A DNA stretch of 64,000 nt from assembly GCF_004364865.1 (NCBI RefSeq), contig NZ_SOAU01000001.1, forward strand, positions 806,001 to 870,000, in the 5' to 3' direction. Below are positions 9,954 through 35,768 of this stretch, piece after piece. Source of the stretch: Ilumatobacter fluminis. Its GTDB lineage: Bacteria; Actinomycetota; Acidimicrobiia; Acidimicrobiales; Ilumatobacteraceae. How positions within the stretch are numbered: the stretch's first letter is position 1; every line of letters starts with the position of its first letter. The notes under the pieces were generated by a model. The model was given only the letters and a program-made list of their open reading frames with translations, searched no databases and had not been told where the DNA came from. The translations under genes and the position numbers were made by a program.

Positions 9954-9967
9954 TTCTCCCCTGATGT

Positions 9968-9992
9968 ACTCGCCGGTGGGTGGCCGGCGAGT
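9968..9992. terminator. Hairpin after the copper oxidase
   Basis: A 9-bp perfect stem, ACTCGCCGG with CCGGCGAGT, around a 7-nt loop, 14 bp after the oxidase stop. First of three hairpins in this convergent gap. Confidence 0.6.
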
Positions 9993-10000
9993 GCAACCAC

Positions 10001-10036
10001 GATCGAGCCCGGACGGTGACCCGTCCGGGCTCGATC
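10001..10036. terminator. 16-bp hairpin between convergent genes
   Basis: GATCGAGCCCGGACGG pairs perfectly with its complement across a 4-nt loop. It lies between the copper oxidase and the convergent DUF1704 gene and probably acts on both strands; there is no T tract. Confidence 0.8.
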
Positions 10037-10064
10037 GCGTTCCGGGGGTGGGGTGGCCGGTCGT

Positions 10065-10109
10065 TGCTCGGTGTCTGCGGTGCGGTTCGCCGGACGTGAG
10101 CCGCCGAGA
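10065..10109 (+). repeat. Single copy of the 45-bp hairpin unit arrayed at 55140-55874
   Basis: Aligned base for base with the first array unit (55140-55184), 35 of 45 positions match, and the right arm CCGCCGAGA and arm spacing (36 bp) are identical. Like the array it sits between convergent genes. Confidence 0.65.
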
Positions 10110-10130
10110 AGCTGGCGGGCCTCGGTCGGG

Positions 10131-11432
10131 TCAGGGGGCTTCGGCGCGGAACCGGGCGCCGGCGACGATGTCGACTGCGGGGACCTGTGCGAGGAGCTCG
10201 GCGATGTGTTCCGTCACGACGTCGAGGTCGATGCCGGCCTGGAACGTACTCAGCGTGAGGTGGGTCAGTACCCACGACGGGTCGCTCGCCCACGGCGGCA
10301 GGAACCGGGCCGGGTTGACCAATCCGGCGGCGCGTAGCTCCGCAAGGGCGGCGACCGACCAGAGGTCGAGCTTGCCGGAGAAGAGGAGTGCCACCGTGTC
10401 GGCGCGGCCGGCGTTGAACGCGGCTCGGACGAAGGTCGCGACCGACAAGAATCCAGACAGGTACGCACAGTCCTTGGTGAAGGGCGCGCCGCCGTCGATC
10501 GGAGCGCCGCGGAAGATGCGGCGGGTCGACTCGAAGGCCTGCTCGTCGTCGGCCGACCGTTCCCGGAACCAACGGAACACCTCGATGAAGTCGGCGCCGT
10601 CGGCGGCGAGTTGGACGGCCACGATGCGATCGGCGAGGCGGCGGAGTCGGTCGAGACCGAGGGTCCCCGACAGGTACTCGGCGTAGACGGCGAGGCCTTC
10701 CTGGGTGCGGGTCGTGCCGGGGTGGCCGATCGCGAGGATCGGGATCTCTGTCTGCGCACGGCCGTTGAGCCCCGTCGCCACGTGGATGTGGGCTTCGTGG
10801 TTGAGGAGTTGGAGGGCGTCCTTGCGAGTGAACCGCGCATCGCGACGGACCTTGATCCGGCTGGTCGACGCCACGGCGTTGGCCGACAGTTCGTCGACGA
10901 TCAGGATCTCGGGCGCCTGCTCACCGAAGTGGTCGCGCACCGCAGGTTCGAGGGTGCTGACCACGTCGAGCGCCGTCTGGTCGCGGATCGGTTGAGGCAG
11001 GAGCTTCGAGGTGGCGAGTTCGTCGAGTGCGGTGTGGATCCGGTTGGCCAGGTCGAGCGGTGTCGCCGGGTCGTAGGGGAGTGGTCGGGTCGGCGAGCCG
11101 TACAGGCGGGCGCTGTACTCGTGGAAGTCGGCGGTGCCGACCGAGGCGAGCATGCAGGCCGTCGCCTCGATGGCGTCGCACTCGCGGACGAGCCAGTCGT
11201 CGACCACGAAGCCGGGTTCGAGCTCTGAACGGGCCGCCTCGACGGCGGCCACGGTGTCGGTCGCGTCGAACGGCTCGTAGGAAGGAGCCGGCAGGGCGGT
11301 GGCGCCCCCGGCGAGGAAGTCCTCGCGGATGTGGCCGGGCCAGTTGAGTCGGGACAGGACCCGCATCGGCTTGGCGATGTCGTGGAGCTGTCGGCTGACG
11401 GATCGGTACCGCTGAGCGGCGTCATCGTGCAC
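10131..11432 (-). CDS. DUF1704 / QEGLA-motif putative metallocarboxypeptidase
   Basis: A 433-residue protein of the DUF1704 family, often annotated as flavohemoglobin expression-modulating QEGLA motif protein. The family signature is present: a zinc-binding HExxxH in NHEAHIHVATGLNG near residue 215 and TRTQEGLAVYAEYLSG near residue 240, where the Glu would be a further ligand. Eukaryotic relatives (MATCAP) are tubulin tyrosine carboxypeptidases, so a C-terminal peptidase activity is plausible; the bacterial substrate is unknown. No signal peptide. GTG start at 11432, with AACACT 6 nt before it on the minus strand as a possible -10. Stands alone between the copper oxidase and the first pilin cassette. 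Confidence 0.87.
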   Translation of the reverse strand: MHDDAAQRYRSVSRQLHDIAKPMRVLSRLNWPGHIREDFLAGGATALPAPSYEPFDATDTVAAVEAARSELEPGFVVDDWLVRECDAIEATACMLASVGTADFHEYSARLYGSPTRPLPYDPATPLDLANRIHTALDELATSKLLPQPIRDQTALDVVSTLEPAVRDHFGEQAPEILIVDELSANAVASTSRIKVRRDARFTRKDALQLLNHEAHIHVATGLNGRAQTEIPILAIGHPGTTRTQEGLAVYAEYLSGTLGLDRLRRLADRIVAVQLAADGADFIEVFRWFRERSADDEQAFESTRRIFRGAPIDGGAPFTKDCAYLSGFLSVATFVRAAFNAGRADTVALLFSGKLDLWSVAALAELRAAGLVNPARFLPPWASDPSWVLTHLTLSTFQAGIDLDVVTEHIAELLAQVPAVDIVAGARFRAEAP

Positions 11433-11657: not shown

Positions 11658-12155
11658 GTGCACAACTTGGCGGGCAACTTGGATGAGGAATCACCCGTGC
11701 ACGCGCGCGACCCGGGAGTGACCTTCATCGAGATCTTGGTTGCGATCGTCTTGATCGGCACGGTGATCGTCGGGATCCTGGCCGCGATGCGAACGAGCAT
11801 CGTCGTGTCCGCCAATGCGCAAGAGGCAGCCAAGGTCGAAACGGCACTGCTCAACGCAAGCGATCGGGTTTCGCGCGCCCCACTCAAGTGCGCCGCCGGC
11901 GGCTACGACCCGTTCGTGCAGGCCGCAATCGCCACCTGGGAGGGCGAAGGGTCGGCCGTCGCGACCGTGACGCATCTCAGCTACGACGCCGACGGCGGCG
12001 CCTTCGCCCCCTCGTCGTGGATCGCAGGTGCGTGCCCCACCGATCCCACTGCTCAGCGCGTCCAAAGGGTCGAGATCACGATCACCGGGCCTGACGGCCG
12101 GGTGACCCGTTCGATCGAGGTCATCAAGTCGAAAATCGGAGGAACGAATGTCTGA
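11658..12155 (+). CDS. PilV-like type IV prepilin, cassette 1
   Basis: A 165-residue minor pilin or pseudopilin. After a 21-residue leader comes the prepilin peptidase/methylation motif: cleavage expected after Gly in DPG/VTFIEILVAI with the conserved Glu at +5, followed by a 25-residue hydrophobic helix. The small globular part has two Cys (LKCAAGG, AGACPTD) and ends in VTRSIEVIKSK. GTG 11658 is chosen because GGAGG lies 5 nt before it. It overlaps the next gene by 8 bp. The order PilV-like, PilW-like, PilX-like matches minor-pilin operons of Gram-negative type IV pili. The closest relative in view is the first gene of cassette 2 at 18165. Confidence 0.85.
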   Translation: MHNLAGNLDEESPVHARDPGVTFIEILVAIVLIGTVIVGILAAMRTSIVVSANAQEAAKVETALLNASDRVSRAPLKCAAGGYDPFVQAAIATWEGEGSAVATVTHLSYDADGGAFAPSSWIAGACPTDPTAQRVQRVEITITGPDGRVTRSIEVIKSKIGGTNV

Positions 12156-14028
12156 CCCAAGAACCGGCAGGGATCGGGGTATGACACTGGTCGAGCTGTT
12201 GGTGACCGTCACCTTGCTCGGGCTCGTCGCAACGGTGATCAGTGCCGCTCTCGTCGTGACGTTCCGGACGACCGACTCGACCGAGGGACGCCTCACGCTG
12301 GCGCGCAGCGAGCAATCGTTCACGACGTGGATGCCTGCTGACCTGGCCTCGGTCAATCTCGAAGTGAGCACCACCCCAGTGGACGACGGCACAGACCCGT
12401 ACGGATTGGTCTCGGGTTTCGTGCCGGTCGATACCTCTGCCACGGCGCAACCGTGCGGGACCGGCATCAGCTGCCCCCCGGGTTTCTCGTTCGAGGGGGA
12501 CAACCAAGTGGTGCTTCGCTGGAGGACGGTGGCGGCCGGCCCCACCACCATGGAGACTGCGGTGTCGTACCGTCTGGTGCCGGGCGCCGACGGCTCCGAA
12601 CTCGTTCGCTACGAGTGCTCGGGTGCTCTCGGTTCGCAGGCCACCTGCTCGTCGATCGTCGTGCTGAGGAATCTCGGCACCGACTGGAGCATGACCACGT
12701 CGTCACCTGACTTCGAGGGCGAGGGCGTCGAGTACGAGAACGTTGCCGGCCAGCAAGTGTCGGTGACCATCAACGGGGGCTTGGGTGCGTCCGAGGAGCT
12801 GTCGGCGGCCGAGGGTGGGCAGGACACCGTCACGCTGACGGCCGGCGGCGTCTCGATGGGCGCCATCTCCTCGTCGGCGCCGACCGGCTCGCCGTCGTTC
12901 GTCCGCGAGCCGTCTCGGTGCGGTGGCCCGATCGTGATCATGGTCGACGACTCCAACTCGATCGGAACGGCGGCGATGGGCACGGTGCGTACGAGCGTCC
13001 GCGCGTTCATCGAAGAGTTTCGAGGTACTCCGGTGCAGCTGCAGGTGGTCGAGTTCGGCACGTGGGCGCAGGTGCTGGGCAACGGCACGACCGGCAACGG
13101 CTACTACGACATGAGCGAGTCGAGCGAAGTCGACGCCGTGAAGGCGCAGATCAACTCGACCAACCTGAGCGGCAACAGCGGAAGCGCCGGCGGTACGAAC
13201 TGGGAGCACGCCTGGTACCGGGCGCTGGTCAATGACGGCAAGCCCGGCGACCAGGTGACCCCGGACACTGTGGTCTTCTTCACCGACGGTGTCCCGACGT
13301 ACTACGTCAACTCGTCCGGCAACCTCGGCGGCTCGGGTAGCTCGTTCACGTACACGAACTGGGCGGAAGCCGAAGCTGTGGCGGCTCCGTTCCGTCGGGC
13401 CACCCCGCCGTCGATCATCGGCGTGGGGGTCAACGGTCCCGACAACGGTCTCAACAACACTCAGTACTTCGATCCGCCCGGCAATTACAACGCCACCTAC
13501 AAGACCGGTCGTCAAATCCTGGCGCAGTTGGTCGATGGCACCGACTCGGGTGTTCAATACAACGGCAGCAACGCTGAGCAGGCCAATCTCTATCTTTTGG
13601 ACGGCTTCGGCGGCCTCACCGAGGCGCTCAAGACCGTTGCGTTGAAGGACTGCGGCGGAACGCTCACCATCCGGACCCGTATCGATTCCGGCGGCGATGG
13701 ACAGAAGTTCCAACCCGAGGTCGTGTACGAGAACGTCGGCGAGACGAGCGAGGGCGGAGCCACCCGCACCGTTGCGACGAGCGGCAGCTTCCCGACCGGG
13801 ACGTTCGACTTCGAGCTCGCCAGTTCATCAGTGACCACCGAAGTCGTGCCGCAGATCTCGAGTGCCCTCGCCGGCTATCGGTTGTCCCGCTGGGAGTGCC
13901 GTGCTGGACCGACCACGCTGGCCGCGTCGGAGACCGACATCGAGGGTGTCGCTGACTTCAAGGGCGTCGAGGTGACGCTCGGCGCCAACCAGGCCGCCTC
14001 CTGCACGATGTGGGTCGTCCCGAAGTGA
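12148..14028 (+). CDS. PilW-like prepilin fused to a von Willebrand A domain, cassette 1
   Basis: A 626-residue modular pilin. A short leader ends in DRG/MTLVELLVTVTLLG, with Glu at +5 and a hydrophobic helix to about residue 36. Residues 36-250 are a pilin-like beta region with several Cys. Residues about 260-440 are a vWA domain with a complete-looking MIDAS: DxSxS at 267-271 (DDSNS), Thr in GGTNWEHAW, and Asp in FFTDGVP near 379. A C-terminal beta region follows (CGGTLTIRTRI, then CTMWVVPK). vWA domains usually bind protein ligands through a metal ion. A vWA modular pilin, PilB, is known in Streptococcus sanguinis, and PilY1 tip adhesins carry vWA domains, so adhesion at a pilus tip is a reasonable inference. 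Confidence 0.87.
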   Translation: MSDPRTGRDRGMTLVELLVTVTLLGLVATVISAALVVTFRTTDSTEGRLTLARSEQSFTTWMPADLASVNLEVSTTPVDDGTDPYGLVSGFVPVDTSATAQPCGTGISCPPGFSFEGDNQVVLRWRTVAAGPTTMETAVSYRLVPGADGSELVRYECSGALGSQATCSSIVVLRNLGTDWSMTTSSPDFEGEGVEYENVAGQQVSVTINGGLGASEELSAAEGGQDTVTLTAGGVSMGAISSSAPTGSPSFVREPSRCGGPIVIMVDDSNSIGTAAMGTVRTSVRAFIEEFRGTPVQLQVVEFGTWAQVLGNGTTGNGYYDMSESSEVDAVKAQINSTNLSGNSGSAGGTNWEHAWYRALVNDGKPGDQVTPDTVVFFTDGVPTYYVNSSGNLGGSGSSFTYTNWAEAEAVAAPFRRATPPSIIGVGVNGPDNGLNNTQYFDPPGNYNATYKTGRQILAQLVDGTDSGVQYNGSNAEQANLYLLDGFGGLTEALKTVALKDCGGTLTIRTRIDSGGDGQKFQPEVVYENVGETSEGGATRTVATSGSFPTGTFDFELASSSVTTEVVPQISSALAGYRLSRWECRAGPTTLAASETDIEGVADFKGVEVTLGANQAASCTMWVVPK

Positions 14029-16361
14029 CGCGCGTCGGTGCGCCGCAACGGAGGCGGGTCGCGGCCAACGGGCGTGACACCGGTTCGGTGCTGCCGTTGG
14101 TGCTCGTGCTCATGGTGATCGGCGCGCTCGTCGTGCTGCCGCTGATGAACTATGCGATCACGGTGATGCGGGCGGGCGAGGTCGAGTCGGACAAGACCCG
14201 CTCGCTCGAGTACGCACGAGCGGGACTCCGAACGGCGCTCACGAGTACGGCTTCGCTCTACGACAACTGCGGCGGGTTCGCGGGCGATGTCCCTCGCAAC
14301 CTGGCGAGTATCGACCTGGCGGGCGTGTCGTCGACGTGCCAGGTCGTCGGCACGACGAACTATCTCAGCAACGATCAAGTGCCGTTTCATCTGGCGACGT
14401 TGCAGATCGATCAGCCGATCCCTCCGGAGCTCGAGGATCCACGGAACTACACGAACCCATCTGCGGCTCCCGACGACGAAGATCTCTGGCAGCCCGACCG
14501 GTCGCCAAATCCAGCGGTCGGGACGGTTTGGGTCCCGAACCTTCCGGTTCGTCCGGAGATCGATCGGACGACGCCGGCTCGTGGCGACGGCGACTACAGC
14601 CGCGCGATGTCGTTCGGCACGTGCGACGTCTACTTCCCTGGCACCTACACCGAACCCGTTGCGGTCCGCGGTCCGCGTCCGACCTACTTCGTGTCCGGCG
14701 TCTACTACTTCGAGTCGACCATCACCTTCGAGGGAGGCGCCGACGTCGTCGTCGGTGCGGGTGAAACCGAAGGCTGCACGGGTGACATCGATGCGCTCAA
14801 CTACGTGTCCAACCCGCCCGAGTCGACACTGATCAGCGGGGTCGGGGCCACGTTCGTGTTCGGGCACGAAGGGCAGTTCATCGTCGACAACTCCGGCGGC
14901 GCCGTCGACGTCGTGATGAACCAGCGCTATGCCGACGACAGCGAGGAGGGCGCGCTGCCGAGCGACGGCGTCTCGATCATGACGGTGAACGGCGATCTCG
15001 ACGACGGTGACCCGACCGGAGACGTGCTGCCGCTCTTCGTCGATGACGTCCTTGCGACGCTGCCGGCCAACGTCACGGTGAACGGCGAGATCGTCAATGT
15101 CGCCGACGACGGCTACGTGCCGTCGGTCCACACCCCCGAGCCGATCCCTCCTGAAGCGCCAGCGGCGCCGAGCGTGGCCGAGTACATCTCCGCTACGTGC
15201 AGCAACCCCACGAACTGCGCTGACAAGGCGGCTGCGTTTCTCTCTTGGGCAACTCCTGACGACAATGGCTTCGTCATCACCGACTACGTCGTCGAAGTCC
15301 GGAGTAAGAGGCGGAACCAGAGCTCGTACGGAAGCTGGTCTCCAACTCCGTGCCCGCTGGACGCGCCGTGGGCGACAGGAGCGGCGGCGAGAGTGTCCTG
15401 CACGGTCCAAGGGCTGAATGGCTACTCGAATCCAGGGCTCAGCTCCAACGAGAGCGATTACCAGTTCCGAGTGACTGCGGTGAGCTACGGCGGCTCCTCT
15501 GACCCCGGGCCCGAGTCGCCGGGCGACACGCGTATCTATGCCCGCCCGTACTCCGGCGGGATTGCTGTCGACCCTCTCTTGTCCGTCGCGGATCCGGTGC
15601 AGCCGATCAACGATCTCGGGTCGCCGACGACGAACTTCGCCGACGGCAAGCTGATCTCCTGGAATCCGGTCGGCGAGCCGAGTGACTCCGGCGGTTTGCC
15701 GATCGATGGGTACCGGGTTGTGGCGACGCCCGTCGGTCCGAACCCCGGTGGCCATCCATTGGTCGAGTGCAGTGCCAACTGGGATCAGACCAGCTGTCTG
15801 CTTCCGGCCGATGATCCCGACACGCCCGCTCCGGCGTTCGAGGGTCTGGTGAGGGGTGCGCCGTACCGCATCACGATGCATGCGATCAATGAACTCGGTG
15901 AGTCGTCGTTGCCGCCGTCGCCGCCGCCGACGCTGGTCTTCCTCGACGGTCTCTCGGACTCGGAGGTCGACGCTCTTCCGCCGTACACGCCGCCACCACC
16001 GCCGCCGACTCCGGCGATCTATCGCACACCGCCTGCCATCATCGAGGTCGTGGCGTCGTCGGCCTCGCCGATACAGCTCGACATCGCCGGCTACGTGTCA
16101 ATGCCGCAAGGCCGGATCGAACTCGACGGTGGTTCGTCGGCCGAGCAGCATGCGATGCGACTCACGGGCGGCGCCGTGACGGCTCGCATCGATGTTGCAA
16201 ATCTGGGCACGAACTCGCGCATCGAGTTCGAGAACCCGTCGACGCAGAAGACAATTCTCATCGTCACGACAGTGAACGGCGACTACGACGCCCGTGCCGA
16301 GGCGGTCGTCCAGGTGAACGCGAACGGTGGCTGGGCTCTGAACTCCTGGGAAGCTGAATAG
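14025..16361 (+). CDS. PilX-like prepilin with adhesin-like beta and FN3 domains, cassette 1
   Basis: A 778-residue protein starting at a GTG that overlaps the previous stop (GTGA); ATG 14010 is the alternative. Residues about 18-45 are a hydrophobic helix after DTG (SVLPLVLVLMVIGALVVLPL), PilX-N-like and lacking the +5 Glu. Residues about 190-340 form a beta-rich domain with FPGTYTEPVAV and SGVYYFE, shared with the cassette 2 protein. Two fibronectin-III-like domains follow at roughly 375-500 and 520-640, then a Pro-rich linker (PPYTPPPPPP) and a C-terminal beta domain ending ANGGWALNSW. Probably the large outer subunit of the minor pilin complex; ligand unknown. Confidence 0.8.
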   Translation: MTRVGAPQRRRVAANGRDTGSVLPLVLVLMVIGALVVLPLMNYAITVMRAGEVESDKTRSLEYARAGLRTALTSTASLYDNCGGFAGDVPRNLASIDLAGVSSTCQVVGTTNYLSNDQVPFHLATLQIDQPIPPELEDPRNYTNPSAAPDDEDLWQPDRSPNPAVGTVWVPNLPVRPEIDRTTPARGDGDYSRAMSFGTCDVYFPGTYTEPVAVRGPRPTYFVSGVYYFESTITFEGGADVVVGAGETEGCTGDIDALNYVSNPPESTLISGVGATFVFGHEGQFIVDNSGGAVDVVMNQRYADDSEEGALPSDGVSIMTVNGDLDDGDPTGDVLPLFVDDVLATLPANVTVNGEIVNVADDGYVPSVHTPEPIPPEAPAAPSVAEYISATCSNPTNCADKAAAFLSWATPDDNGFVITDYVVEVRSKRRNQSSYGSWSPTPCPLDAPWATGAAARVSCTVQGLNGYSNPGLSSNESDYQFRVTAVSYGGSSDPGPESPGDTRIYARPYSGGIAVDPLLSVADPVQPINDLGSPTTNFADGKLISWNPVGEPSDSGGLPIDGYRVVATPVGPNPGGHPLVECSANWDQTSCLLPADDPDTPAPAFEGLVRGAPYRITMHAINELGESSLPPSPPPTLVFLDGLSDSEVDALPPYTPPPPPPTPAIYRTPPAIIEVVASSASPIQLDIAGYVSMPQGRIELDGGSSAEQHAMRLTGGAVTARIDVANLGTNSRIEFENPSTQKTILIVTTVNGDYDARAEAVVQVNANGGWALNSWEAE

Positions 16362-16376
16362 TTCGGAAAGTGTGTG

Positions 16377-16401
16377 ACACCCCTTGGTCATGATGGGGTG
16401 T
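16377..16401 (+). promoter_or_regulatory. Inverted repeat covering the RBS of HNH gene 1
   Basis: ACACCCC and GGGGTGT, a perfect 7-bp inverted repeat, enclose 11 nt. The right arm contains the ribosome-binding GGGG and ends one base before ATG 16402. The same arms and position occur in front of HNH gene 2. It could be an operator or an mRNA hairpin masking the ribosome-binding site. Confidence 0.7.
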
Positions 16402-17712
16402 ATGAGTTCTCCCGACCCCGCAGCCGAGTTGGCGGCGATCTTCGCCGTTGATGTCACGGTTGCTGACCCGACTGGGTGCGCGACGGTGTTGGGTGCGACG
16501 CGTCGGTTGCGGGGGTTCATCGATCAGGTGGAGGCGGGTGTGACGCGTCGGATGATCGAGTTGCACGAAGAGCAGGGTGCGGCTCCGGCTGCGGATGTTC
16601 ATGCTCGGACAGGTGGTGTGTCGTCGGCGGAGGGGAAGCGCAAGGAGCGTCGGTCGAAGACGTTGGATGAGGCGCCGTCGTTCGAAGATGCGTTGGGTGC
16701 GGGTGAGATCGGTGCTGAGCATGTCGATGCGTTGGCGAATGCGACGGCGAAGCTCGACGATGACGTGAAGGATCAGTTGTTCGACCGTGAATCCGATTTG
16801 TTGGATGATGCGAGGCGTCTGTCGCCGGAGGAGTTCGGTCGGTCGGTGCGTGATCTCGCTCGGGCGATCGAACGCGACAACGGCATCGAACGTGCGACCC
16901 GACAGCGCAAAAGCACGTTCTTGTCCCGCAAGACGAACACCGCCACCGGGTTGGTGGAGGGACGGTTCGCGTTCCACCCGGAACTCGCCAGCAAGGTGTT
17001 CGGTCCGGTCGACCGACACGTCTCGACGTTGATCAAGGAGGGTGCCCAGGCCGGTGATCCGGAGTGTGTCGATCGCAGCGTCGACCGCAACCGATTGGCA
17101 GCCGAAGCGCTCGGCGAACTCGTCGCCTCCGGGAACCAGAACCTGCATCCCGGCACCGCCGATGCGACCGCGATCGTCGACGCGACCGCACTCGTCACCG
17201 GTGAGATCGACGATGACACCGTCTGCGAAACCGGGGACGGCAACGCCCTCCCACCGGCTGCGGTGTCACGAATGATCTGCAACGGACAGGTCACCCCGAT
17301 CCTCGTCGATGCCGACCGTGTCCCACTCGCGGCTGGGCGGACGGTGCGTCACGCCAACCGAGCCCAACGGCGAGCCCTCAGGGCGATGTATCGCACCTGC
17401 GGGTTCGGGGACTGTGATGTGGCGTTCGACCGGTGCGAGATGCACCACATCGTCCCCTGGGAACACGGTGGCAGCACCGATCTCGACAACCTCATCCCGC
17501 TCTGCTCGCGGCATCACCATGTGGTCCACGAAGGCGACTGGGCCCTCGAACTCGCACCGGACCGGACACTCACGACCCGGCAACCCGACGGCCGAGTGTT
17601 CACGGTCAGTGAGCCCGATGTGCCACCACAACGGCGCCGACGGCGAACCGTCGACGAACAGGAACCGGCACCGGCACCGGAACGGGTGCGGGAGCGACAA
17701 CCCGCAGCGTGA
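16402..17712 (+). CDS. DUF222 / HNH endonuclease (13E12 repeat family), copy 1
   Basis: A 436-residue protein. The N-terminal two thirds is DUF222 (VLGATRRLRGFIDQVEAGVTRR, ARRLSPEEFGRSVRDLAR). The C-terminal HNH domain is intact: CGFGDCDVAFDRCEMHHIVP, then WEHGGSTDLDNLIPLCSRHH, with the Cys pairs and catalytic His expected of an HNH nuclease. It ends in a basic RRRRRR tail. This is the 13E12 repeat family, multi-copy in actinobacteria; its natural job is unclear. ATG 16402 is preferred over 16384-16393 because GGGG precedes it, embedded in the inverted repeat. It follows the pilin gene by 40 bp on the same strand, so it may be co-transcribed. About 90% identical to copy 2. Confidence 0.9.
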   Translation: MSSPDPAAELAAIFAVDVTVADPTGCATVLGATRRLRGFIDQVEAGVTRRMIELHEEQGAAPAADVHARTGGVSSAEGKRKERRSKTLDEAPSFEDALGAGEIGAEHVDALANATAKLDDDVKDQLFDRESDLLDDARRLSPEEFGRSVRDLARAIERDNGIERATRQRKSTFLSRKTNTATGLVEGRFAFHPELASKVFGPVDRHVSTLIKEGAQAGDPECVDRSVDRNRLAAEALGELVASGNQNLHPGTADATAIVDATALVTGEIDDDTVCETGDGNALPPAAVSRMICNGQVTPILVDADRVPLAAGRTVRHANRAQRRALRAMYRTCGFGDCDVAFDRCEMHHIVPWEHGGSTDLDNLIPLCSRHHHVVHEGDWALELAPDRTLTTRQPDGRVFTVSEPDVPPQRRRRRTVDEQEPAPAPERVRERQPAA

Positions 17713-18164
17713 CGCACGCCGCCCGACCCCGACACCCTGAACGGAACAGTCGACCCAGCCCCCGCTGGGGCAGCGGCGTGCCCCGGCCGATCGAGGGCGC
17801 CCGACCACACCTGCACAGCGGTCGGCTGGCGTCGGGTTCGATCATCGCTCCCGCCGGAACCGAGCGATGCGTCGTCCCGAGCTGGCCGTCGAGCAGGCGG
17901 CGAGCACTGCCGACGCACACCTGCCGAGACCGGACGCACCGCAACTCGCGGCTATCGCGGCGCTATTGCACTCGTCCGCTGGGGCACCTGATCGCGAAAA
18001 CTGACTCAAGATTCTCCGGACGGTGCCGATTCGTTACAGCGAGCGGATGACTTTGCGAAGACTTCAGTGTCGGCGCGAGGTCACGACAACTGAACAACCG
18101 ATCGGATCAGGGCGCTGGGTAGGGACGGCGTCGGCGGGGTTCGACCTGACGGATCGGAGTGCCC
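17713..18164. other. Intergenic spacer between the two pilin cassettes
   Basis: No convincing gene. The first 80 bp, including hairpin CCCAGC/GCTGGG at 17754-17769, is homologous to the sequence after HNH gene 2 (hairpin at 26240-26258), so the duplicated unit extends past the HNH stop. The last 160 bp must hold the promoter of cassette 2; no clear -10 can be picked. Confidence 0.5.
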
Positions 18165-18665
18165 ATGCGGGTACGCGCACGAGCAACAGACAGAACGCCA
18201 GACGCCCTGGCCGACGCGTCCACAGCGCGCGACGCCGGCGCGACCCTCGTCGAGGTCTTGATCACCATCGTCCTGCTGGGGACCCTCGTCGCCGGCATCT
18301 TGACGCTGACGCAGACGTCGATCATCGCATCGAAGACGAGCGAGGAAGCGGCACGAGTCGAGTCGGCGCTCCTCACTGCGGCCGAACGCGTCGAACGAGC
18401 CGACCGCCTGCAGTTCCCCTGCGACGACACCTTGCCGGCGCCGGTCGAGGCTGCCGCGCAGCTCAAGCTCGGCGTCAGCGAAACCGACGTGGAGCACCAC
18501 GCCTGGATCACGACCGAGCACCTCGACGGCTCGGGCCAGTGGGCTCCCGGCGCCTGCCCCGGTGGCGTGTATCAGCCGAACTTGGTGCAGCGAATCACGA
18601 TCACGATGGTCAGCCCCGACACCGGCCTGACCCGATCACTGGAGGTGATCAAGGGTGACATCTGA
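18165..18665 (+). CDS. PilV-like type IV prepilin, cassette 2
   Basis: A 166-residue paralogue of the 11658 gene. The leader of about 24 residues ends in RDAG, then ATLVEVLITIVLLGTLVAGI with Glu at +5 and a hydrophobic helix. The region after the helix keeps the same spacing as cassette 1 (EEAARVESALLTAAERVERA against QEAAKVETALLNASDRVSRA), a Cys in the FPCDD segment, Cys in PGACPGG, and the same ending TRSLEVIKG. ATG 18165 is chosen because GGAG lies 5 nt upstream; a GTG at 18159 overlaps that GGAG. It overlaps the next gene by 11 bp. Confidence 0.85.
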   Translation: MRVRARATDRTPDALADASTARDAGATLVEVLITIVLLGTLVAGILTLTQTSIIASKTSEEAARVESALLTAAERVERADRLQFPCDDTLPAPVEAAAQLKLGVSETDVEHHAWITTEHLDGSGQWAPGACPGGVYQPNLVQRITITMVSPDTGLTRSLEVIKGDI

Positions 18666-20622
18666 GACCACACCACGAACCCGCAGCGATCGGGGTATGA
18701 CCCTGATCGAACTGCTCGTGTCGATCACGGTGATCGGACTCATCGCCACGGTGCTCGCCGCCACGATCACCGTCGTACTCCGGCAGTCGCCCGAGACGAC
18801 GGCTCGGGTCGACACGGCGCGCTGGGAACAGAACCTGGGCACCTGGCTCCCGGCCGACCTGGCCTCGGCCCAGTGGCCGACGGACGACGACGGCGACGGC
18901 CTCCCGGACGACCCGACCCAAGCGGTCGACTACGACCTGTACTCGCCCTGTGCGGAAGCGCAGTGCACCTGGGGCGAGAACGTCGTCCACCTCGCGTGGG
19001 AAGAAGGCGGCGTCGCCATCGACGTGTCGTATCGGTACGGCCAGGCCGACGACGGCACGTACGAGTTCCGCCGGGTCGCGTGCCGAAACGGCGACTGCTC
19101 GACCCAGACGCTCGTTCGTGACATGCCAGAACCGTCGAGTGGCGGCGAACCGCCGATCTCGGTGTCCTTCCCGCCCGACGTGCTCGACACCGACCCCAAC
19201 GGCAGCCCGATCGTGAACACGAGCGGTCGCCGGGTGAGCGTCACCATCAAGTCGATGGACGGCACCGAGCTGCTCTCGTTCACCGGTGGCGGTACCGAGC
19301 GGGTCGATCTCGAACCGGCGGCGATCCAGCCTCCCGAGTTCCTCCAGGCCCGCAGCGGTTGCGGCGGCCCGATCACCCTCATCGTCGACGAGTCGGGTTC
19401 GCTGACGGCGAGCGATGCCGGCAAGGTGCAGAACGGCGTCCGTTCGTTCGTCTCCACCTTCTCCGGCACCCCGACCCAGCTCCAGATCATCGGCTTCAAC
19501 TCCGACGCACGAGTCCTCGGCAGCTCCGGATGGAACAACTGGTACGACCTGAGCGAGCAGTCGGTGGTCGACTCGTTGCTGGGCGGCTCTTCGCCGATCA
19601 ACTCACTCGGACACGGCGGTGCGACCAACTGGGAGGACGCCATCTACCGCGCCCTTTACACCGAGTCGGGCCAGACGTATCAGGCGCTCGGCAACCCGGC
19701 CAACCCGGCACCCGAGATGATCGTGTTCTTCACCGACGGCATGCCGACCTATCACCGGGACGAGGACCAGACCGGTCCCGAGTCACCCGAGATCCCGAGC
19801 GGCAACGTCCCGTCGCACTTCAACTACAACAACACCACCGAGGCGACCTACACCCAGTTCGACCCGCTGGCCTGGTACCGGGCAGCGTGGCTGCTCGGCC
19901 AGACACAGACCCGGGTCATCGGGGTCGGCGTCGGCACGGCGTTCGGTATGTCGGCCAACCTCGACCGCGACACGACCATCCCCGACTCGGTCATCGCGTC
20001 CGACTGGTCGGCGCCGAACGGCCCGAGTGATGGCTACTCGCACCCGCGTGCGCTCCCCGCGGAGGTCGCGCTCGGCGACCTGATCGCCGGCAACGACATC
20101 TCGAACTACGACGGCAACACTGCCGATCGGTACGTCAAGGTGTCGTACGACGGTGGATGGAACGCCGAGGCCGTCGCCGAGGCCGACCTGTTGACGACGA
20201 CGAACTTCAACGAGTTCGGCGGTGCCCTCGACTCGATCGCCTTGAGCGAGTGTGGCGGCACGTTGACCGTGCAGACCCGTCTCCGTTCGAACACGTCGCC
20301 GCTGCGCGAGACCGTCGGCTACGAGGTGTCGGCCGAAGACATGCCCGTCACCGAGGCGTCGACCTCGGCGGTGAACAAGTCGGCAGCGTTCGACATCTCG
20401 ACCGACGGCGGTGCCTCGGTTGACATCCTGCTCAAGCCCCGCAGCCTCGACGGAACGGGCTACCGAGCCGACGGCTGGACCTGCCGTACGAAGAACGTCG
20501 AGATCACCGACTCGTCGAAGATGTCGCTCCACGACGCCGGCGAAGGCCCGGCCGGCGGCATCGACCTGACCGTTGCGGCCAACGAAGCAGTCGCCTGCGT
20601 CCTCTGGGTGGTGCCCTCATGA
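18655..20622 (+). CDS. PilW-like prepilin fused to a von Willebrand A domain, cassette 2
   Basis: A 655-residue paralogue of the 12148 gene. Leader then DRG/MTLIELLVSITVIG with Glu at +5; pilin-like region to about 235; vWA domain from about 240 with MIDAS DESGS at 245-249, Thr in GGATNWEDA and Asp in FFTDGMPTYH; C-terminal beta region with CGGTLTVQTRL and a final CVLWVVPS. An excellent ribosome-binding site, GGAGGTG at 18641-18647, lies 8 nt before GTG 18655, inside the end of the previous gene, so translation is coupled. The stop overlaps the next start (ATGA). Presumed surface adhesin pilin; ligand unknown. Confidence 0.87.
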   Translation: MTSETTPRTRSDRGMTLIELLVSITVIGLIATVLAATITVVLRQSPETTARVDTARWEQNLGTWLPADLASAQWPTDDDGDGLPDDPTQAVDYDLYSPCAEAQCTWGENVVHLAWEEGGVAIDVSYRYGQADDGTYEFRRVACRNGDCSTQTLVRDMPEPSSGGEPPISVSFPPDVLDTDPNGSPIVNTSGRRVSVTIKSMDGTELLSFTGGGTERVDLEPAAIQPPEFLQARSGCGGPITLIVDESGSLTASDAGKVQNGVRSFVSTFSGTPTQLQIIGFNSDARVLGSSGWNNWYDLSEQSVVDSLLGGSSPINSLGHGGATNWEDAIYRALYTESGQTYQALGNPANPAPEMIVFFTDGMPTYHRDEDQTGPESPEIPSGNVPSHFNYNNTTEATYTQFDPLAWYRAAWLLGQTQTRVIGVGVGTAFGMSANLDRDTTIPDSVIASDWSAPNGPSDGYSHPRALPAEVALGDLIAGNDISNYDGNTADRYVKVSYDGGWNAEAVAEADLLTTTNFNEFGGALDSIALSECGGTLTVQTRLRSNTSPLRETVGYEVSAEDMPVTEASTSAVNKSAAFDISTDGGASVDILLKPRSLDGTGYRADGWTCRTKNVEITDSSKMSLHDAGEGPAGGIDLTVAANEAVACVLWVVPS

Positions 20623-23600
20623 ACACGTTCCGTCGATTCCGCCGCTACCGAGCCGAGCGGCTCGAGCGCCAGTACACCACCGAGTGGGTCGCCAACCAGC
20701 GCGACCGCGGTGCCGTGCTCCCCTTGGTGCTCGTCATGATCATCGTCGGGGCGCTCATCGTGATCCCGGTGACGCACTACACCACGTCGGTGCTTCGTGC
20801 GAACAAGGTCGAGGAAGAGAAGACACGCAACTCGGAGTCGGCGAAGGGCGCCATTCGTGTCGCGCTGCACTCGCCGTCGCTGGTGTTCGGTGACGACGAC
20901 CGCGCCGACGACGGCTGCCCCGACAACGTCGCCGATCTCATCCCCGACGGTGTCATGACCGAGACGGGTGTGTCGCTGACGTGCAACCACGTCGACGAGC
21001 TCAGCGCCGACGAGGTATTCGGCCTCGAAGTGCCCGTCGGGCTGGCCCAGTTGCAGATCGCTCCCGATCCGGCCGGTCTCGATCGCTACAGCGGTGTGGT
21101 TGCGACCTCGGGCGAGGCTCCGCCGTACACCGACAGCGGTTTCGAGCCGTCGTGGGCATGGTGGCTCGGCTTCGACCCGGGGGCCACCGGCGAGGCGCGC
21201 AGCGTCGCGCCGCTGCCGGAGCTCCCTTCGTTCTCCGGCGTCCTGCGTGACTCGGGTCCGCTCGACATGCCCGGCTTCGACTGCAAGGTCTTCCTGCCGG
21301 GTCACTACACCGATCCGGTCGTCGTGGACGGCAGCTTCGGATCGAACAACTTCTACTTCGCCAGCGGCGTCTATTACTTCGAGGAGCCGATCTCGATCTC
21401 CGGCAACGTCGACATCGTCGTCGGTCAGGGTCTCGCCGACTTCGGCGTGACGAACGACTGCGCCGATGACATCCAGGTCGGCGCCCACGTCGACGTCCCG
21501 CTCGGCACGACCTACGGCATCGACGGCAACACCGGTGGTGCGACGTGGGTGCTCGGCGACAACGCCCGTCTCTCCGTGTCGGAATCCGGGGGCGCACCGT
21601 CGGTCCGCTTCAACCAGCGCTACGCCGAGAACCAGAGTGGCGCCTGGACGAACATCATCTCCGTCAACGGCGACTGGTCGTACGGCGATGCCGATCCGGA
21701 CAACGACGACGGATTCGAGGACGCCGACGGCGACCACTCGGTCACGAACGTCAACTTCGTGCCGCGCAGCCAGGTGATCTCCGGTGAGACCGTCGTACCG
21801 CTGTACCTGTCCGGTGCACCGTACGTCCCGAGCCATCCGTCGCTCACCGACGAGGCCCGCATCCCCGACGCGCCGATCAACGTCAACGCCGTCGCTGCCA
21901 TCCGTGAGGTGTCGGGCCCCGACGATGGTGCCGTCATCGTCACGTTCGAGGGCGTCGAAGGTGCCAACACGAACGGCGCGATCATCGACGACTACGAGGT
22001 CGGGATCGCGACCAGCGCCGGCGGTGATCCGACGGTCGCCTGCTCGGCCTCCACGAGCACGGTGTGGCCGACCTACGAAGGATCCGACGGCACGACGCCC
22101 TGGGGCAACCCGTCCGGCGAGAACGCTGGATCACCCGACGGCTACTCGTGCATGATCACGGAGTTGCCGGAGGACGCGACGTACTGGGTCACGGCACGCG
22201 CCCACTCCGAAGTCGGCTGGAGCGATTGGGCCACGCGGGCGGAGGTCACGGTGGCTCTCGGCGCCCCGGCTGCCCTCCCACCGGGCTCGGCCTCGAACAT
22301 CACGATCGAGACGTACGACACCGACGACGCGTTGATCAGCTGGGACGCAGCCATCGACGCAAACCTTGCGCCGGTCCAGGCGTACGAGGTCACCGTGTAT
22401 CGCGTCGGCGACGTCAGGATCGACAGCATCGTGCCCGACCTCGGGCTCGAGACCGGCGGTTTGCCGGTGGTGATCACCGGCTCGGGCTTCACGTCAGCGC
22501 CGGTCGATGATGTCACCTTCGGCGGCTTGTCGGCGACGTCGTTCACCGTGGTGAGCGACACGGAGATCGCGGCGGTCACCCCGCCGCACGCTCCCGGCGG
22601 TGTCGACGTCGTCGTCGACTTCGGGTCGACCGTGTCGGGTTCGGCGAACTTCAACTATCAGCCGGTCACCTCACCGCTACCGGGGCTGCCGGCGATCACC
22701 GGCCTCAGTCAGACGAACGGCCCCGAGGCTGGGGGTGACACCGTCACGATCACGGGTACTGATCTCGACCTCGTCACGTCGGTCTCGTTCGGGCCGAACG
22801 CAGCGTCGATCGTCTCGACTTCGCCGACCGAGGTCGTGGTCACGGTTCCCGCCGGTTCGGGCACGGTCGCGGTGAGTGTGAGCAACCTGATCGGTTCGAG
22901 CACGCCGACCGGCTACACGTACGACACGCCGCCGCCGGTCCCGCCGTCGGTCGGGGGGATCGGCCCGTCCTCAGGGCCGCAGGCGGGTGGCAACACCGCG
23001 ACCATCACCGGCACCGCACTGGGTGAGACGAGTCTCGTGACGTTCGGCGGTGTGCCGGCGACCGACCTGACCGTCGTCAGCGACTCGGAGATCACCGTCA
23101 CGGTGCCCGAGCACCCGTCGGGTGACGTCACGGTCGAGGTCGTCGTCACGACTCCGGTCGACACGAGTGGCCCGGTCGACTACACGTACGACCCGAAGCC
23201 GATCCCCGCACCGGTGATCGACTCGATCGGCCCCGACGTCGGCACGACCTCCGGTGGGACGACCGTCGTGATCAGTGGCGAGCACTTCACCGACGCGACG
23301 ACCGTCCGCTTCGAAGGTGTCGCGGCGCCGTATCTCGCCGTCGACAGCGATACGCAGATCACGGTCACCACGCCGTCGCACAGCGCCGGTTCGGTCGGCG
23401 TGGTGGTCGAGACGCCGGGTGGAACGAGCAACGCAGCGTCGTTCACCTATTCAGCCAACGTTCCGACGCCGCCACCGGTCGCCTGCGGTGACGTCGCACC
23501 GAACAGCGTGTGCGACGACGAGGGTTTCCAGGCGTGCGCAGCGCCGGTCATCATCCGGACCGGCCCGCGCGGTAATCGTCGCTACTCGTGGAGCTGTGAC

Positions 23601-24437
23601 GCTCCTGCTTGCTACAACGGCGAGCAGCAGATCTACACCTACGGCAACTGGTATTGCGCCACGGGTTGTCCCGCCGGGGAAGAGCCGTACTGGGACCGGG
23701 GTTGGCGTTGCGACGAGATCGACTGCAACGGTGGGCGGACCGGTGTCTACGCCTTCGGACGGGCGTGGTGTTACCGACCCGGCGGCTTCGCCGGGTCGGG
23801 CCAACCGACCGGACTGAGTGCGTTCGCCAGCCATCTCATCGAACAAACACCACCCCCCATCGCCACTGTGGAAGAGGCAGTGGGTTCGTGTACGGCGACG
23901 CCGATCATGGGCGGGGTCGGATACGAGGACAAAGAGTGGATGGCTCGGACGCAGTGCGTCATCGAGGATCTCCCGCCGTTGCCGGTAGGCAGCGAGTATC
24001 GGGTCGAGGTGACCGCCATCAACTCGGTCGGTACGTCCGACTCGAGCGTGACCGTCAGCTCGATCAGCGGACCGGGCACCCTCGACGAGCCGTTCGACCG
24101 AGTGTGGTTCCCCTACTACGAGCAGTCGATCATCAACATCGACGCGAGTGGCGGTGGGTCGACGCACATCGAGATCCCCGGCTACATCTCGGTCCCGATG
24201 GGGCGACTGACGATCAACAACCCGAGCGGCGATCCCATCAGCTTCACCGGGGGCGTCGTCGCCGGCCGGATCGCCATCAGCGACTCTCGTGACCCGCTGC
24301 CGATGGGGTACGTCCCCTCGGTGATCATGCAGCGCACCGTCGACCTGACGGCCACGTCCGGCAACATCACGTCGACGGCGAGGGTGAAGATCAACTCCGA
24401 CACCAGCTACGGCATCCTCAACTGGGTAACCCAGTAG
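20619..24437 (+). CDS. Giant PilX-like prepilin with FN3, four IPT/TIG and Cys-rich domains, cassette 2
   Basis: A 1,272-residue paralogue of the 14025 gene. Residues about 30-55 are a PilX-N-like helix (AVLPLVLVMIIVGALIVIPV). The shared beta domain (FLPGHYTDPVVV, SGVYYFE) lies near 225-360. An FN3 domain follows near 415-545. A second FN3 begins near 560, breaks off after YEVTVYRVGD (about 600) and resumes near 1085-1150 (CVIEDLPPLPVGSEYRVEVT). Between the halves lie four IPT/TIG domains (about 600-685, 688-770, 777-860, 864-950; for example SGPQAGGNTATITGT) and a region with ten Cys (about 955-1060). The C-terminal domain (SVPMGRLTINNPSG) matches cassette 1. Probably a long adhesive pilus-associated protein. 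Confidence 0.82.
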   Translation: MNTFRRFRRYRAERLERQYTTEWVANQRDRGAVLPLVLVMIIVGALIVIPVTHYTTSVLRANKVEEEKTRNSESAKGAIRVALHSPSLVFGDDDRADDGCPDNVADLIPDGVMTETGVSLTCNHVDELSADEVFGLEVPVGLAQLQIAPDPAGLDRYSGVVATSGEAPPYTDSGFEPSWAWWLGFDPGATGEARSVAPLPELPSFSGVLRDSGPLDMPGFDCKVFLPGHYTDPVVVDGSFGSNNFYFASGVYYFEEPISISGNVDIVVGQGLADFGVTNDCADDIQVGAHVDVPLGTTYGIDGNTGGATWVLGDNARLSVSESGGAPSVRFNQRYAENQSGAWTNIISVNGDWSYGDADPDNDDGFEDADGDHSVTNVNFVPRSQVISGETVVPLYLSGAPYVPSHPSLTDEARIPDAPINVNAVAAIREVSGPDDGAVIVTFEGVEGANTNGAIIDDYEVGIATSAGGDPTVACSASTSTVWPTYEGSDGTTPWGNPSGENAGSPDGYSCMITELPEDATYWVTARAHSEVGWSDWATRAEVTVALGAPAALPPGSASNITIETYDTDDALISWDAAIDANLAPVQAYEVTVYRVGDVRIDSIVPDLGLETGGLPVVITGSGFTSAPVDDVTFGGLSATSFTVVSDTEIAAVTPPHAPGGVDVVVDFGSTVSGSANFNYQPVTSPLPGLPAITGLSQTNGPEAGGDTVTITGTDLDLVTSVSFGPNAASIVSTSPTEVVVTVPAGSGTVAVSVSNLIGSSTPTGYTYDTPPPVPPSVGGIGPSSGPQAGGNTATITGTALGETSLVTFGGVPATDLTVVSDSEITVTVPEHPSGDVTVEVVVTTPVDTSGPVDYTYDPKPIPAPVIDSIGPDVGTTSGGTTVVISGEHFTDATTVRFEGVAAPYLAVDSDTQITVTTPSHSAGSVGVVVETPGGTSNAASFTYSANVPTPPPVACGDVAPNSVCDDEGFQACAAPVIIRTGPRGNRRYSWSCDAPACYNGEQQIYTYGNWYCATGCPAGEEPYWDRGWRCDEIDCNGGRTGVYAFGRAWCYRPGGFAGSGQPTGLSAFASHLIEQTPPPIATVEEAVGSCTATPIMGGVGYEDKEWMARTQCVIEDLPPLPVGSEYRVEVTAINSVGTSDSSVTVSSISGPGTLDEPFDRVWFPYYEQSIINIDASGGGSTHIEIPGYISVPMGRLTINNPSGDPISFTGGVVAGRIAISDSRDPLPMGYVPSVIMQRTVDLTATSGNITSTARVKINSDTSYGILNWVTQ

Positions 24438-24453
24438 GGAGCGTCCGTACCCA

Positions 24454-24483
24454 CGCAGCCGCCGGGTTCACCCGGCGGCTGCG
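24454..24483 (+). terminator. 13-bp hairpin after pilin cassette 2
   Basis: CGCAGCCGCCGGG and its exact complement around a TTCA loop, 17 bp past the stop. Cassette 1 has no such hairpin before its HNH gene. If it works, HNH gene 2 needs its own promoter. Confidence 0.75.
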
Positions 24484-24863
24484 CCGCGCCCGGGGGGATC
24501 GTCGGTGACGGGCGACAGTCGTTGAGTCGACCGGTGAGTGCAGTCTCATTCGCACACATCGGTACTCACCGCAGCTGCCGGGGCGCGGCTGCGCCGCGCC
24601 CGGGGATGCGGGTGACGCTCGGCGGCCGGTGCGTCGAAAGGCCCGCGGAAAGGATGACGTGTCTTGCGTCAGGCGTCGCTGGTCGCATCGTGAACCGGAG
24701 CCGCCAGGCGGTCGATGAGCGCGACGCCGCGGGTATCGGGAGCGCCGTAGCTCGTCGGCTGAAAGGACCGGCCCGATGGTCATCGGCCCAACCCCGTCGG
24801 ACCGGTACGTCGAATACTTCGAGATTTCTTCGTCGGGAGGGTCCGGAATCGGGAAACTCTGTC
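24484..24863. other. Intergenic region between pilin cassette 2 and HNH gene 2
   Basis: No gene recognised. It contains a direct repeat of GGCTGCGCCGCGCCCGGGG (24477-24495 and 24588-24606). Cassette 1 has only 40 bp here, so about 400 bp was gained in copy 2 or lost from copy 1. Confidence 0.5.
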
Positions 24864-24888
24864 ACACCCCTTCGTCATGATGGGGTGT
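24864..24888 (+). promoter_or_regulatory. Inverted repeat covering the RBS of HNH gene 2
   Basis: ACACCCC and GGGGTGT enclose 11 nt; the right arm holds the ribosome-binding GGGG and abuts ATG 24889, exactly as at 16377-16401. Confidence 0.7.
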
Positions 24889-26193
24889 ATGAATTCTCCC
24901 GACCCCGCAGCCGAGTTGGCGGCGATCTTCGCGGTCGATGTCAGGGTTGCTGACCCGACCGGGTGCGCCGCGGTGTTGGGTGCGACGCGTCGCCTGCGGG
25001 GGTTCATCGATCAGGTCGAGGCGGGTGTGACGCGTCGGATGATCGAGTTGCACGAACAGCAGGGTGCGGCTCCGGCTGCGGATGTGCACGCGCAGACCGG
25101 TGGTGTGTCGTCGGCGGAGGGCAAGCGCAAGGAGCGTCGCTCGAAGACGTTGGACGAGGCGCCGTCGTTCGAAGACGCTCTCGGCTCGGGTGAGATCGGT
25201 GCTGAGCATGTCGATGCGTTGGCGAATGCCACAGCGAAGCTCGACGACGATGTGAAGGGTCAGTTGTTCGATCGTGAAGCCGATCTGTTGGATGATGCGA
25301 GGCGTCTGTCGCCGGAGGAGTTCGGTCGGTCGGTGCGTGATCTGGCTCGGGTGATCGAACGTGACAATGGGATCGAGCGTGCGACGCGGCAGCGGAAGAG
25401 CACGTTCTTGTCCCGCAAGACGAACACCGCCACCGGCCTGGTCGAAGGACGATTCGCTTTCCATCCGGAACTCGCGTCGAAGGTGTTCGGCCCGGTCGAC
25501 CGACACGTCGGCACCCTCATTGCAGAGGGCGCGGCCGCGGGTGACCCGGAGTGTGTCGATCGCAGCGTCGACCGCAACCGGTTGGCGGCCGAAGCACTCG
25601 GCGAACTCGTCGCCTCCGGGAACCATGAGCTGCATCCCGGCACCGCCGATGCGACCGCGATCATCGACGCCACGGCGCTCGTGACCGGCGAGATCGACGA
25701 TGACACCGTCTGCGAAACCGGTGACGGCAACGCCCTCCCACCGGCTGCGGTGTCACGAATGATCTGCAACGGACAGGTCACCCCGATCCTCGTCGATGCC
25801 GACCGTGTCCCACTCGCGGCTGGGCGGACGGTGCGTCACGCCAACCGAGCCCAACGGCGAGCCCTCAGGGCGATGTATCGGACGTGTGGGTTCGGGGACT
25901 GTGATGTGGCGTTCGACCGGTGCGAGATGCACCACATCGTCCCCTGGGAACACGGTGGCAGCACCGATCTCGACAACCTCATCCCGCTCTGCTCGCGGCA
26001 TCACCATGTGGTCCACGAAGGTGGCTGGCAGCTCGAACTCGCCGACGATCGCACGCTCACGGTTCGTCAACCGGACGGCCAGGTGTTCACCGTCAGTGAG
26101 CCCGATGTGCCGCCACAGCGGCGCCGACGGCGAACCGTCGCCGAACAGGAACCGGCACCGGAACGGGTGCGGGAGCGACAACCCGCAGCGTGA
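24889..26193 (+). CDS. DUF222 / HNH endonuclease (13E12 repeat family), copy 2
   Basis: A 434-residue paralogue of the 16402 gene with the same DUF222 plus HNH layout and the same catalytic block (CEMHHIVPWEHGGSTDLDNL, SRHHHVVHEG). Scattered substitutions occur through the first 270 codons. From about 25727 to 26023 the DNA is almost identical to copy 1, including synonymous positions, then diverges again, as expected from recent gene conversion. The Arg-rich tail is present. Unlike copy 1 it lies about 450 bp after its pilin cassette and behind a hairpin. It may be an active nuclease or a selfish element. Confidence 0.9.
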   Translation: MNSPDPAAELAAIFAVDVRVADPTGCAAVLGATRRLRGFIDQVEAGVTRRMIELHEQQGAAPAADVHAQTGGVSSAEGKRKERRSKTLDEAPSFEDALGSGEIGAEHVDALANATAKLDDDVKGQLFDREADLLDDARRLSPEEFGRSVRDLARVIERDNGIERATRQRKSTFLSRKTNTATGLVEGRFAFHPELASKVFGPVDRHVGTLIAEGAAAGDPECVDRSVDRNRLAAEALGELVASGNHELHPGTADATAIIDATALVTGEIDDDTVCETGDGNALPPAAVSRMICNGQVTPILVDADRVPLAAGRTVRHANRAQRRALRAMYRTCGFGDCDVAFDRCEMHHIVPWEHGGSTDLDNLIPLCSRHHHVVHEGGWQLELADDRTLTVRQPDGQVFTVSEPDVPPQRRRRRTVAEQEPAPERVRERQPAA

Positions 26194-26581
26194 CGCGCGC
26201 CGCCCGACCCGAGTCCGCCGACTCGAACGGAACAGTCGACCCAGCCCTGCCCGCTGGGACAGCGGCGTGCCCCGGACCGTGTTCACCGCGGCCCGATGTC
26301 GAGGATCACTCGGATCGACTCATCCGGTCCGACGCCACCCGACTGGTTCGATCGCGGCAGCGCCCGGGTGGCGCGCTCGGGGAACGAGGCGTCGACCGGG
26401 TCACAGGATTCCGGAGTCAGGTGACCGCCGGTCACGCCTCGCCCTGGGGGCGAGTCGTCACCTCTGGCACCTGACCCGGGGTGGTGGGGCGTGTCGTCGC
26501 GTTTGGCGCCTGGGTCGGGTCGGTGGGGCGTGTCGTCGCGTTTGACACCTGGCCCGCGACGCCGTTGCTCGGGCGGCGGGG
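26194..26581. other. Convergent gap between HNH gene 2 and topA
   Basis: No gene recognised. Contains hairpins at 26240-26258 (shared with the HNH 1 downstream region), 26421-26435 (GTGACC/GGTCAC) and 26438-26454 (CTCGCCC/GGGCGAG), which may end transcription from both sides, and a 39-bp tandem repeat near 26483-26560. Confidence 0.5.
26483..26560 (+). repeat. Two copies of a 39-bp tandem repeat
   Basis: Both units begin GGTGGGGCGTGTCGTCGCG and continue TTTGRCRCCTGG; a shorter, more degenerate unit seems to precede them. No coding potential is apparent. Confidence 0.6.
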
Positions 26582-35402: not shown

Positions 35403-35768
35403 TCATGGGGGTTCGCGCGGCATCGTGGCGCGCCCGGTGAGCCTGACATCGCCGATCGCCGCGCCGACGATCGGGACGCTCGTCGGGTCGACGAACTCGA
35501 CCTCGACGGTGACCGTGGAGTCGGCCACCGTCGTGGTCACGGCCAGCGGCGCCAGGCCGGTCGCCGACGATGCGTGGGCCGACGCCGCCGAAGCGGGATC
35601 GGCAGCCACGCTCGCTGCTCGTGCCGCCGACCGTGCGACGTGTTCGAGCGCCAGCTGACGGGTCGCGATGATCGACACCTGGACGATGCCGAGCGCGAGC
35701 ACGATCACGGCCGGGCAGACGATCGCGAACTCGACCGCCGCCTGGCCGCGATCGCGTCGGCGCGTCAT
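35403..35768 (-). CDS. TadE-like pseudopilin
   Basis: A 121-residue protein with the TadE signature right at the start: RRRDRGQAAVEFAIVCPAVIVLALGIVQ, cleavage expected near the Gly-Gln and the conserved Glu in the helix. The rest is a small beta-rich domain (VTTTVADSTVTVEVEFVDP). The start ATG overlaps the stop of the flp-like gene by 4 bp. Last gene of the Tad operon; minor pseudopilins of this type assist assembly of Flp pili. Confidence 0.85.
   Translation of the reverse strand: MTRRRDRGQAAVEFAIVCPAVIVLALGIVQVSIIATRQLALEHVARSAARAASVAADPASAASAHASSATGLAPLAVTTTVADSTVTVEVEFVDPTSVPIVGAAIGDVRLTGRATMPREPP

Follow-up and report, generated by a model that had tools for sequence, protein, structure and literature searches.

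The stretch of DNA analysed here (hereafter the window) comprises 64,000 nucleotides of the Ilumatobacter fluminis genome, a single contig of 4.775 Mb, and corresponds to C1:806001–870000. Positions marked C1 refer to this contig, G-numbers denote related genomes, and L-numbers denote the loci or stretches examined. Two type IV prepilin operons, termed cassettes 1 and 2, lie head to tail on the same strand at 11658–24437. Each encodes a small minor prepilin (V), a prepilin carrying a von Willebrand factor A (vWA) domain (W), and a large GspK/PilX-like pilin (X), and an HNH gene is located 3′ of each set. An earlier note on this DNA had described V-W-X prepilin order followed by an HNH gene, twice side by side, and all eight genes were confirmed when the window was re-read. 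Consecutive pilin genes overlap by 8 nt (V1/W1) and 19 nt (W1/X1) in cassette 1 and by 11 nt (V2/W2) and 4 nt (W2/X2) in cassette 2. The GTG start codon of V1 was picked for the GGAGGA upstream. Coordinates of all features are given in Table 1.

The W proteins were analysed by profile searches, alignment and structure prediction. W1 consists of a pilin module (residues approximately 1–185), a vWA domain with a metal ion-dependent adhesion site (MIDAS; approximately 258–500), and a C-terminal β domain (505–626). The N_methyl matches of W1 and W2 were above the cut-off (25.4 and 26.9 bits, respectively), and their prepilin motif with Glu5 reads MTLVE or MTLIE. The MIDAS residues, D267-x-S269-x-S271, T350, and D380, did not vary among 26 aligned W proteins. 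The AlphaFold model of W1 (pLDDT 75) showed a long pilin helix, with N-terminal helices at residues 14–41 and 43–68, a pilin β sheet, the vWA domain, and a C-terminal β domain of approximately 120 amino acids. Foldseek matched this model to vWA adhesins, including Streptococcus sanguinis PilB (PDB 7ba2) and S. pneumoniae RrgA (E = 4e-7 for both); modelling, which the note had suggested as a check, thus agreed with its assignment of a full vWA MIDAS domain to the PilW-like member. S. sanguinis PilB, a bimodular type IV pilin with a vWA module, has been characterised experimentally as an adhesin (PMC8179133). No Pfam match to the C-terminal β-propeller of PilY1/PilC was found in the W proteins. 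We concluded that W is a type IV pilin fused to a vWA domain with a complete MIDAS; it probably mediates metal-dependent adhesion and is probably located at the pilus tip.

V has a prepilin motif with Glu5 (VTFIE or ATLVE). The N-termini of X are GspK/PilX-like and lack Glu5 (GSVLPLVLVLM and GAVLPLVLVMI); Glu5 is also absent from GspK. The X1 model comprised a long N-terminal helix (27–78), a β-rich domain, two FnIII domains with matches to tandem FnIII structures, and a conserved C-terminal part. The N- and C-terminal parts of X were conserved over 24 homologues, and a search of the X sequence against solved structures gave nothing usable.

The note had proposed looking for pilus machinery in the same genome, and PilB, PilC, PilD, and PilT genes were found clustered at C1:4.541–4.545 Mb (T2SSE twice, T2SSF, and A24 peptidase), with small pilins nearby. 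Further V-W(-X) sets are present at C1:1.14 Mb and 4.61 Mb. The W-type pilin of the latter (L058:7899–9524) carries Ig-like domains (Big_9/HYR) where W1 and W2 have vWA; together with the vWA-bearing W, this agrees with a single scaffold on which effector modules can be exchanged, as in modular pilins, for which 264 architectures have been described (PMC8179133). Tad/Flp-type genes (TadE, T2SSF, and T2SSE) were also observed in the window at 35403–38655 on the minus strand.

Amino acid identities between the two cassettes were 41% for V, 31% for W, and 36% for X. In the tree, W2 grouped with orthologues of G112, G019, and G123 (support 100) and W1 was placed outside this group. The low identities and the tree placement suggest that the duplication is old or that the two sets have different histories; judged from these comparisons, the pair is not a simple recent duplication. 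The site is shared with G112, a sister genome from a neighbouring species, as indicated by the identities of the response regulator (99%), MCO (92%), MATCAP-like protein (88%), and histidine kinase (80%). G112 has a third cassette, A, making three cassettes versus two in the window, the adjacency of its two contigs being deduced from gene content. Its cassette C, on the second contig, was 80–83% identical to window cassette 2, and its middle cassette was only 36–44% identical to window cassette 1, though the upstream flanks were 80–99% identical. With such low identity beside conserved flanks, cassette 1 occupies a variable (hypervariable) slot. In G019, a cassette-2 orthologue (L066, G019:C1:3.954 Mb) adjoins a sigma-factor-like region whose window counterpart (52–59 kb) lies approximately 30 kb from the cassettes; cassettes thus change place. 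In a scan of genome contigs, 43 Acidimicrobiia loci with a vWA-bearing W were identified, the best related of which were named Ilumatobacter, Ilumatobacteraceae, or Acidimicrobiia. V preceded and X followed W wherever the contig was long enough, and several loci had tandem cassettes. A literature search on Ilumatobacter or Acidimicrobiia pilins found nothing relevant.

The HNH genes were far less diverged than the pilins. HNH1 and HNH2 were 95% identical in amino acids and 90.5% in nucleotides (dS 0.28), so that comparing divergence within gene pairs, as the note had proposed, bore out the divergence of the pilins but not one shared unit. The genome contains five near-identical HNH copies (protein identity 84–100%) and 11 distant ones; three of the five are unlinked to pilins and lie in unrelated surroundings, with neighbours including groEL-like and transporter-like genes (named by reading translations). 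The copies are under purifying selection (dN/dS, the ratio of nonsynonymous to synonymous substitution rates, 0.08–0.15). In an alignment of the five copies, the conserved block extends from a promoter-like box at the start codon to approximately 74 bp past the stop codon, ending in the window at 17786 and 26275, and clean terminal repeats, sharp ends, or a target duplication were not found. The first element begins 4 nt 3′ of the X1 stop codon. The homologous tail after each HNH gene, which the note had taken as a sign that HNH belongs to the repeated unit, does exist, but it is common to the dispersed copies and carries no such meaning. Of the predicted DUF222/HNH architecture, only the HNH domain was matched in HNH1 and HNH2; DUF222 was matched in a paralogue (L056). 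At that locus (C1:3281.5–3284.7 kb), the DUF222/HNH gene (9247–10662) comes after a gene for a type IV pilin (L056:7538–8716) that bears a CBM_2 domain, which binds cellulose. In G079:C10 (L112:7118–11672), a V-W-X set whose W (348 amino acids) has no vWA match is directly followed on the same strand by a different HNH paralogue.

The comparison was extended to related genomes. For the C1:3717k copy, G019 and G101 have an empty site with the two flanks adjoining, and G112 has the copy; the inserted segment is 2.5 kb long and takes in a neighbouring gene, and thus does not represent the HNH element inserted cleanly on its own. In G112, the junction of cassettes B and C is a spacer of approximately 360 bp without HNH, and the stretch from cassette A to cassette B contains a decayed remnant of the HNH 3′ end, at a site syntenic to the window (L070:2088–2268, G112:C153). 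No HNH was found beside 42 of the 43 related vWA cassettes, this remnant being the exception. An HNH gene or piece was present at two of the 43 loci: the remnant (L120) and a distant one approximately 6 kb off in L145. With 16 HNH genes per 4.78 Mb in the own genome, chance would place approximately 2.2 in the 656 kb covered; the count around cassettes thus equals background, and HNH is therefore not a component of the cassette. The four-gene V-W-X-HNH unit was therefore rejected, since HNH is dispersed, is absent beside nearly all related cassettes, and is much less diverged than the pilins; the search of relatives for the four-gene order showed that V-W-X is kept and HNH is not. The note's alternative, HNH as a mobile passenger, is favoured by the dispersed copies and by their near-identity against the diverged pilins. 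By its genomic distribution, HNH is a putative REP13E12-like dispersed passenger repeat that landed beside each cassette.

Table 1 Features of the two pilin cassettes and the HNH elements.
Feature	Position	Strand	Evidence or remark
V1, small minor prepilin (PilV/GspI-like), cassette 1	11658..12155	+	Cleavage motif DPG/VTFIE (cleaved at the slash); N_methyl E=0.0017; TIGR02523 PilV sub-threshold
W1, modular prepilin with vWA, cassette 1	12148..14028	+	N_methyl and VWA matches; MIDAS invariant; AlphaFold model
X1, GspK/PilX-like pilin without Glu5, two fn3 before conserved C-terminal part	14010..16361	+	fn3 E=3.6e-8; model
HNH element copy 1 (box, gene, and ~74 bp tail), putative passenger	16365..17786	+	Alignment of five genomic copies
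HNH1 gene	start 16390 or 16402, end 17712	+	
Promoter-like box ending at HNH1 start	16365..16401	+	Pattern 14 times in genome, reversed control 0
V2, small minor prepilin, cassette 2	18159..18665	+	N_methyl E=3.8e-4; G112 orthologue 83% identical
W2, vWA modular prepilin, cassette 2	18655..20622	+	N_methyl, VWA; G112 orthologue 80%; genus clade in tree
X2, giant GspK/PilX-like pilin, fn3 and four IPT/TIG modules	20619..24437	+	TIG E=6.4e-48; fn3
HNH element copy 2, putative passenger	24852..26275	+	Alignment of genomic copies
HNH2 gene	start 24877 or 24889, end 26193	+	
Promoter-like box ending at HNH2 start	24852..24888	+	Box pattern search
Further box sites	C1:291923, 721917, 1348178, 1639564 and others; G019 C1:295246, 3798272, 4412297		

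A gene for a MATCAP/tyrosine carboxypeptidase-like protein (10131–11432, minus strand; PF08014 E=5e-113) adjoins the pilin array, and a tRNA-SeC gene is located at window 44365–44460.

The promoter-like box, GGAAACnnTGTnACAnCCnTTnGTCAnGATGG, occurred 14 times in the own genome at ≤3 mismatches (reversed pattern, 0) and 5 times in G019; a shorter form occurred 16 and 7 times, respectively. It lies directly 5′ of the start codons of the HNH genes, RadA (TIGR00416, above cut-off), a ComF-family gene (below the curated cut-off), RmuC, and a DUF2786 gene, and in G019 before a CoiA_N gene, a ComF-family gene, and RmuC. At ≤3 mismatches, it was absent before the pilin and type IV pilus genes examined, so it does not tie HNH to the cassettes. 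Its distribution suggests a competence, DNA-processing, or DNA-damage regulon of Ilumatobacter that HNH elements may have joined.

Here, we propose with fairly high confidence that two operons for type IV pilus tip adhesins stand in tandem at this locus and that HNH is an inserted passenger. PilD would cleave V (GspI/PilV-like), W (GspJ/PilW-like), and X (GspK/PilX-like), and the three probably come together as a heterotrimer, priming and capping a pilus that PilB/PilC build and PilT retracts. W would present its vWA domain, the MIDAS of which may bind a metal ion together with a ligand, either protein or glycan, and would thus take over, as part of a pilin, the role that PilY1 plays from outside; X may add an fn3/TIG stalk or second binding modules. 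The two diverged cassettes would provide alternative tips, cassette 1 being in a fast-changing slot, and paired adhesins, as the note had suggested, are their likely meaning. The HNH element would be a separate REP13E12-like repeat, inserted downstream and dispensable for the pilus.

Compared with known systems, W shares with S. sanguinis PilB an N-terminal pilin module and a vWA domain with a canonical MIDAS, the tip position of that adhesin being itself modelled. Unlike it, W has an extra conserved C-terminal β domain and is locked in a V-W-X operon with an fn3/TIG-rich X, in tandem copies, in Acidimicrobiia. The V, W, X order and the putative vWA adhesive function at the tip resemble the Pseudomonas PilVWX/FimU-PilY1 tip complex, whereas the vWA domain here lies inside the W pilin. 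The GspI-GspJ-GspK pseudopilus tip trimer likewise has three minor pilins, the third large and without Glu5, but here the J-like subunit has vWA, the K-like one has fn3/TIG, and a retraction-type ATPase is present. REP13E12 (HNH/DUF222) is listed among repetitive elements (PMC10589994, PMC13061034), and the HNH elements are, like these actinobacterial repeats, multicopy, dispersed, and HNH-encoding; they differ in the undetected DUF222 of HNH1/2 and in a box common to RadA, ComF, RmuC, and CoiA genes.

Several points weigh against the proposed interpretation. All evidence is computational, from sequence and predicted structure. The Pfam vWA scores of W1 and W2 were just under the gathering cut-off in single-sequence searches (21.4 and 22.0 vs 23.8 bits). 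The curated models for PilV (TIGR02523, 19.1 vs 52.2 bits) and PilX (PF13681, 14.5 vs 27 bits) were not reached, and these putative names were assigned from the order of the genes and from matches below threshold. PilM (PF11104) had no match in the own genome; the pilus is thus not a canonical type IVa pilus, or PilM is too diverged. Finally, three HNH genes lie within 2 kb of pilin genes in the own genome versus 0.2 expected (p=0.002). Leaving out HNH1 and HNH2, this proximity was not significant (p=0.16), and no significant enrichment near pilins was found in G019 or around the 43 cassettes.

Beyond a passive passenger, selfish HNH repeats may have captured the competence/DNA-processing box, be expressed on DNA uptake or repair, and spread by transformation, some settling beside hypervariable tip cassettes and perhaps helping to exchange them; we regard this as rather doubtful. 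It is also unlikely that the HNH copies serve as recombination sites and so drive the acquisition, loss, and exchange of cassettes here. Near-identical repeats on both sides of cassette 2, the varying cassette number, the decayed G112 remnant, and the frequent gene conversion of REP13E12 repeats in Mycobacterium tuberculosis (PMC13061034) would agree with this, but tandem cassettes without HNH occur in G079, G037, G018, and G076, and intact flanking copies were found in one genome only. We consider it still less probable, though also a point against an adhesive pilus, that V-W-X caps a pseudopilus or secretion machine resembling the type II secretion system. The GspI/J/K-like organisation, the GspK-like X, the several cassettes per genome, and the lack of a PilM match fit such a machine; the PilT-like second ATPase alongside PilB/PilC/PilD, the vWA and fn3/TIG modules, which suit adhesion, and the characterised vWA pilin, a type IV pilus adhesin (PMC8179133), do not. 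That HNH is a working fourth cassette gene, which might for instance process DNA that the pilus takes up, is very improbable: its position 3′ of X in both cassettes, the HNH paralogue behind the G079 set, and the box before RadA, ComF-family, RmuC, and CoiA genes are outweighed by the 42 cassettes without an adjoining HNH, the three unlinked copies, the background density, and a box of its own that was not seen before pilin genes at ≤3 mismatches.

Of the original observation, the part on the pilins stands, as a variant of known modular vWA pilins, and the four-gene part falls. The tip-adhesin interpretation extends the modular-pilin idea to a lineage of environmental actinobacteria, in which the operon family is conserved and has several paralogues. 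With a putative vWA adhesin built into the PilW/GspJ position and tandem diversifying sets, tip specificity could be studied across natural cassettes, and the box provides a testable link between HNH repeats and RadA, ComF-family, RmuC, and CoiA genes.

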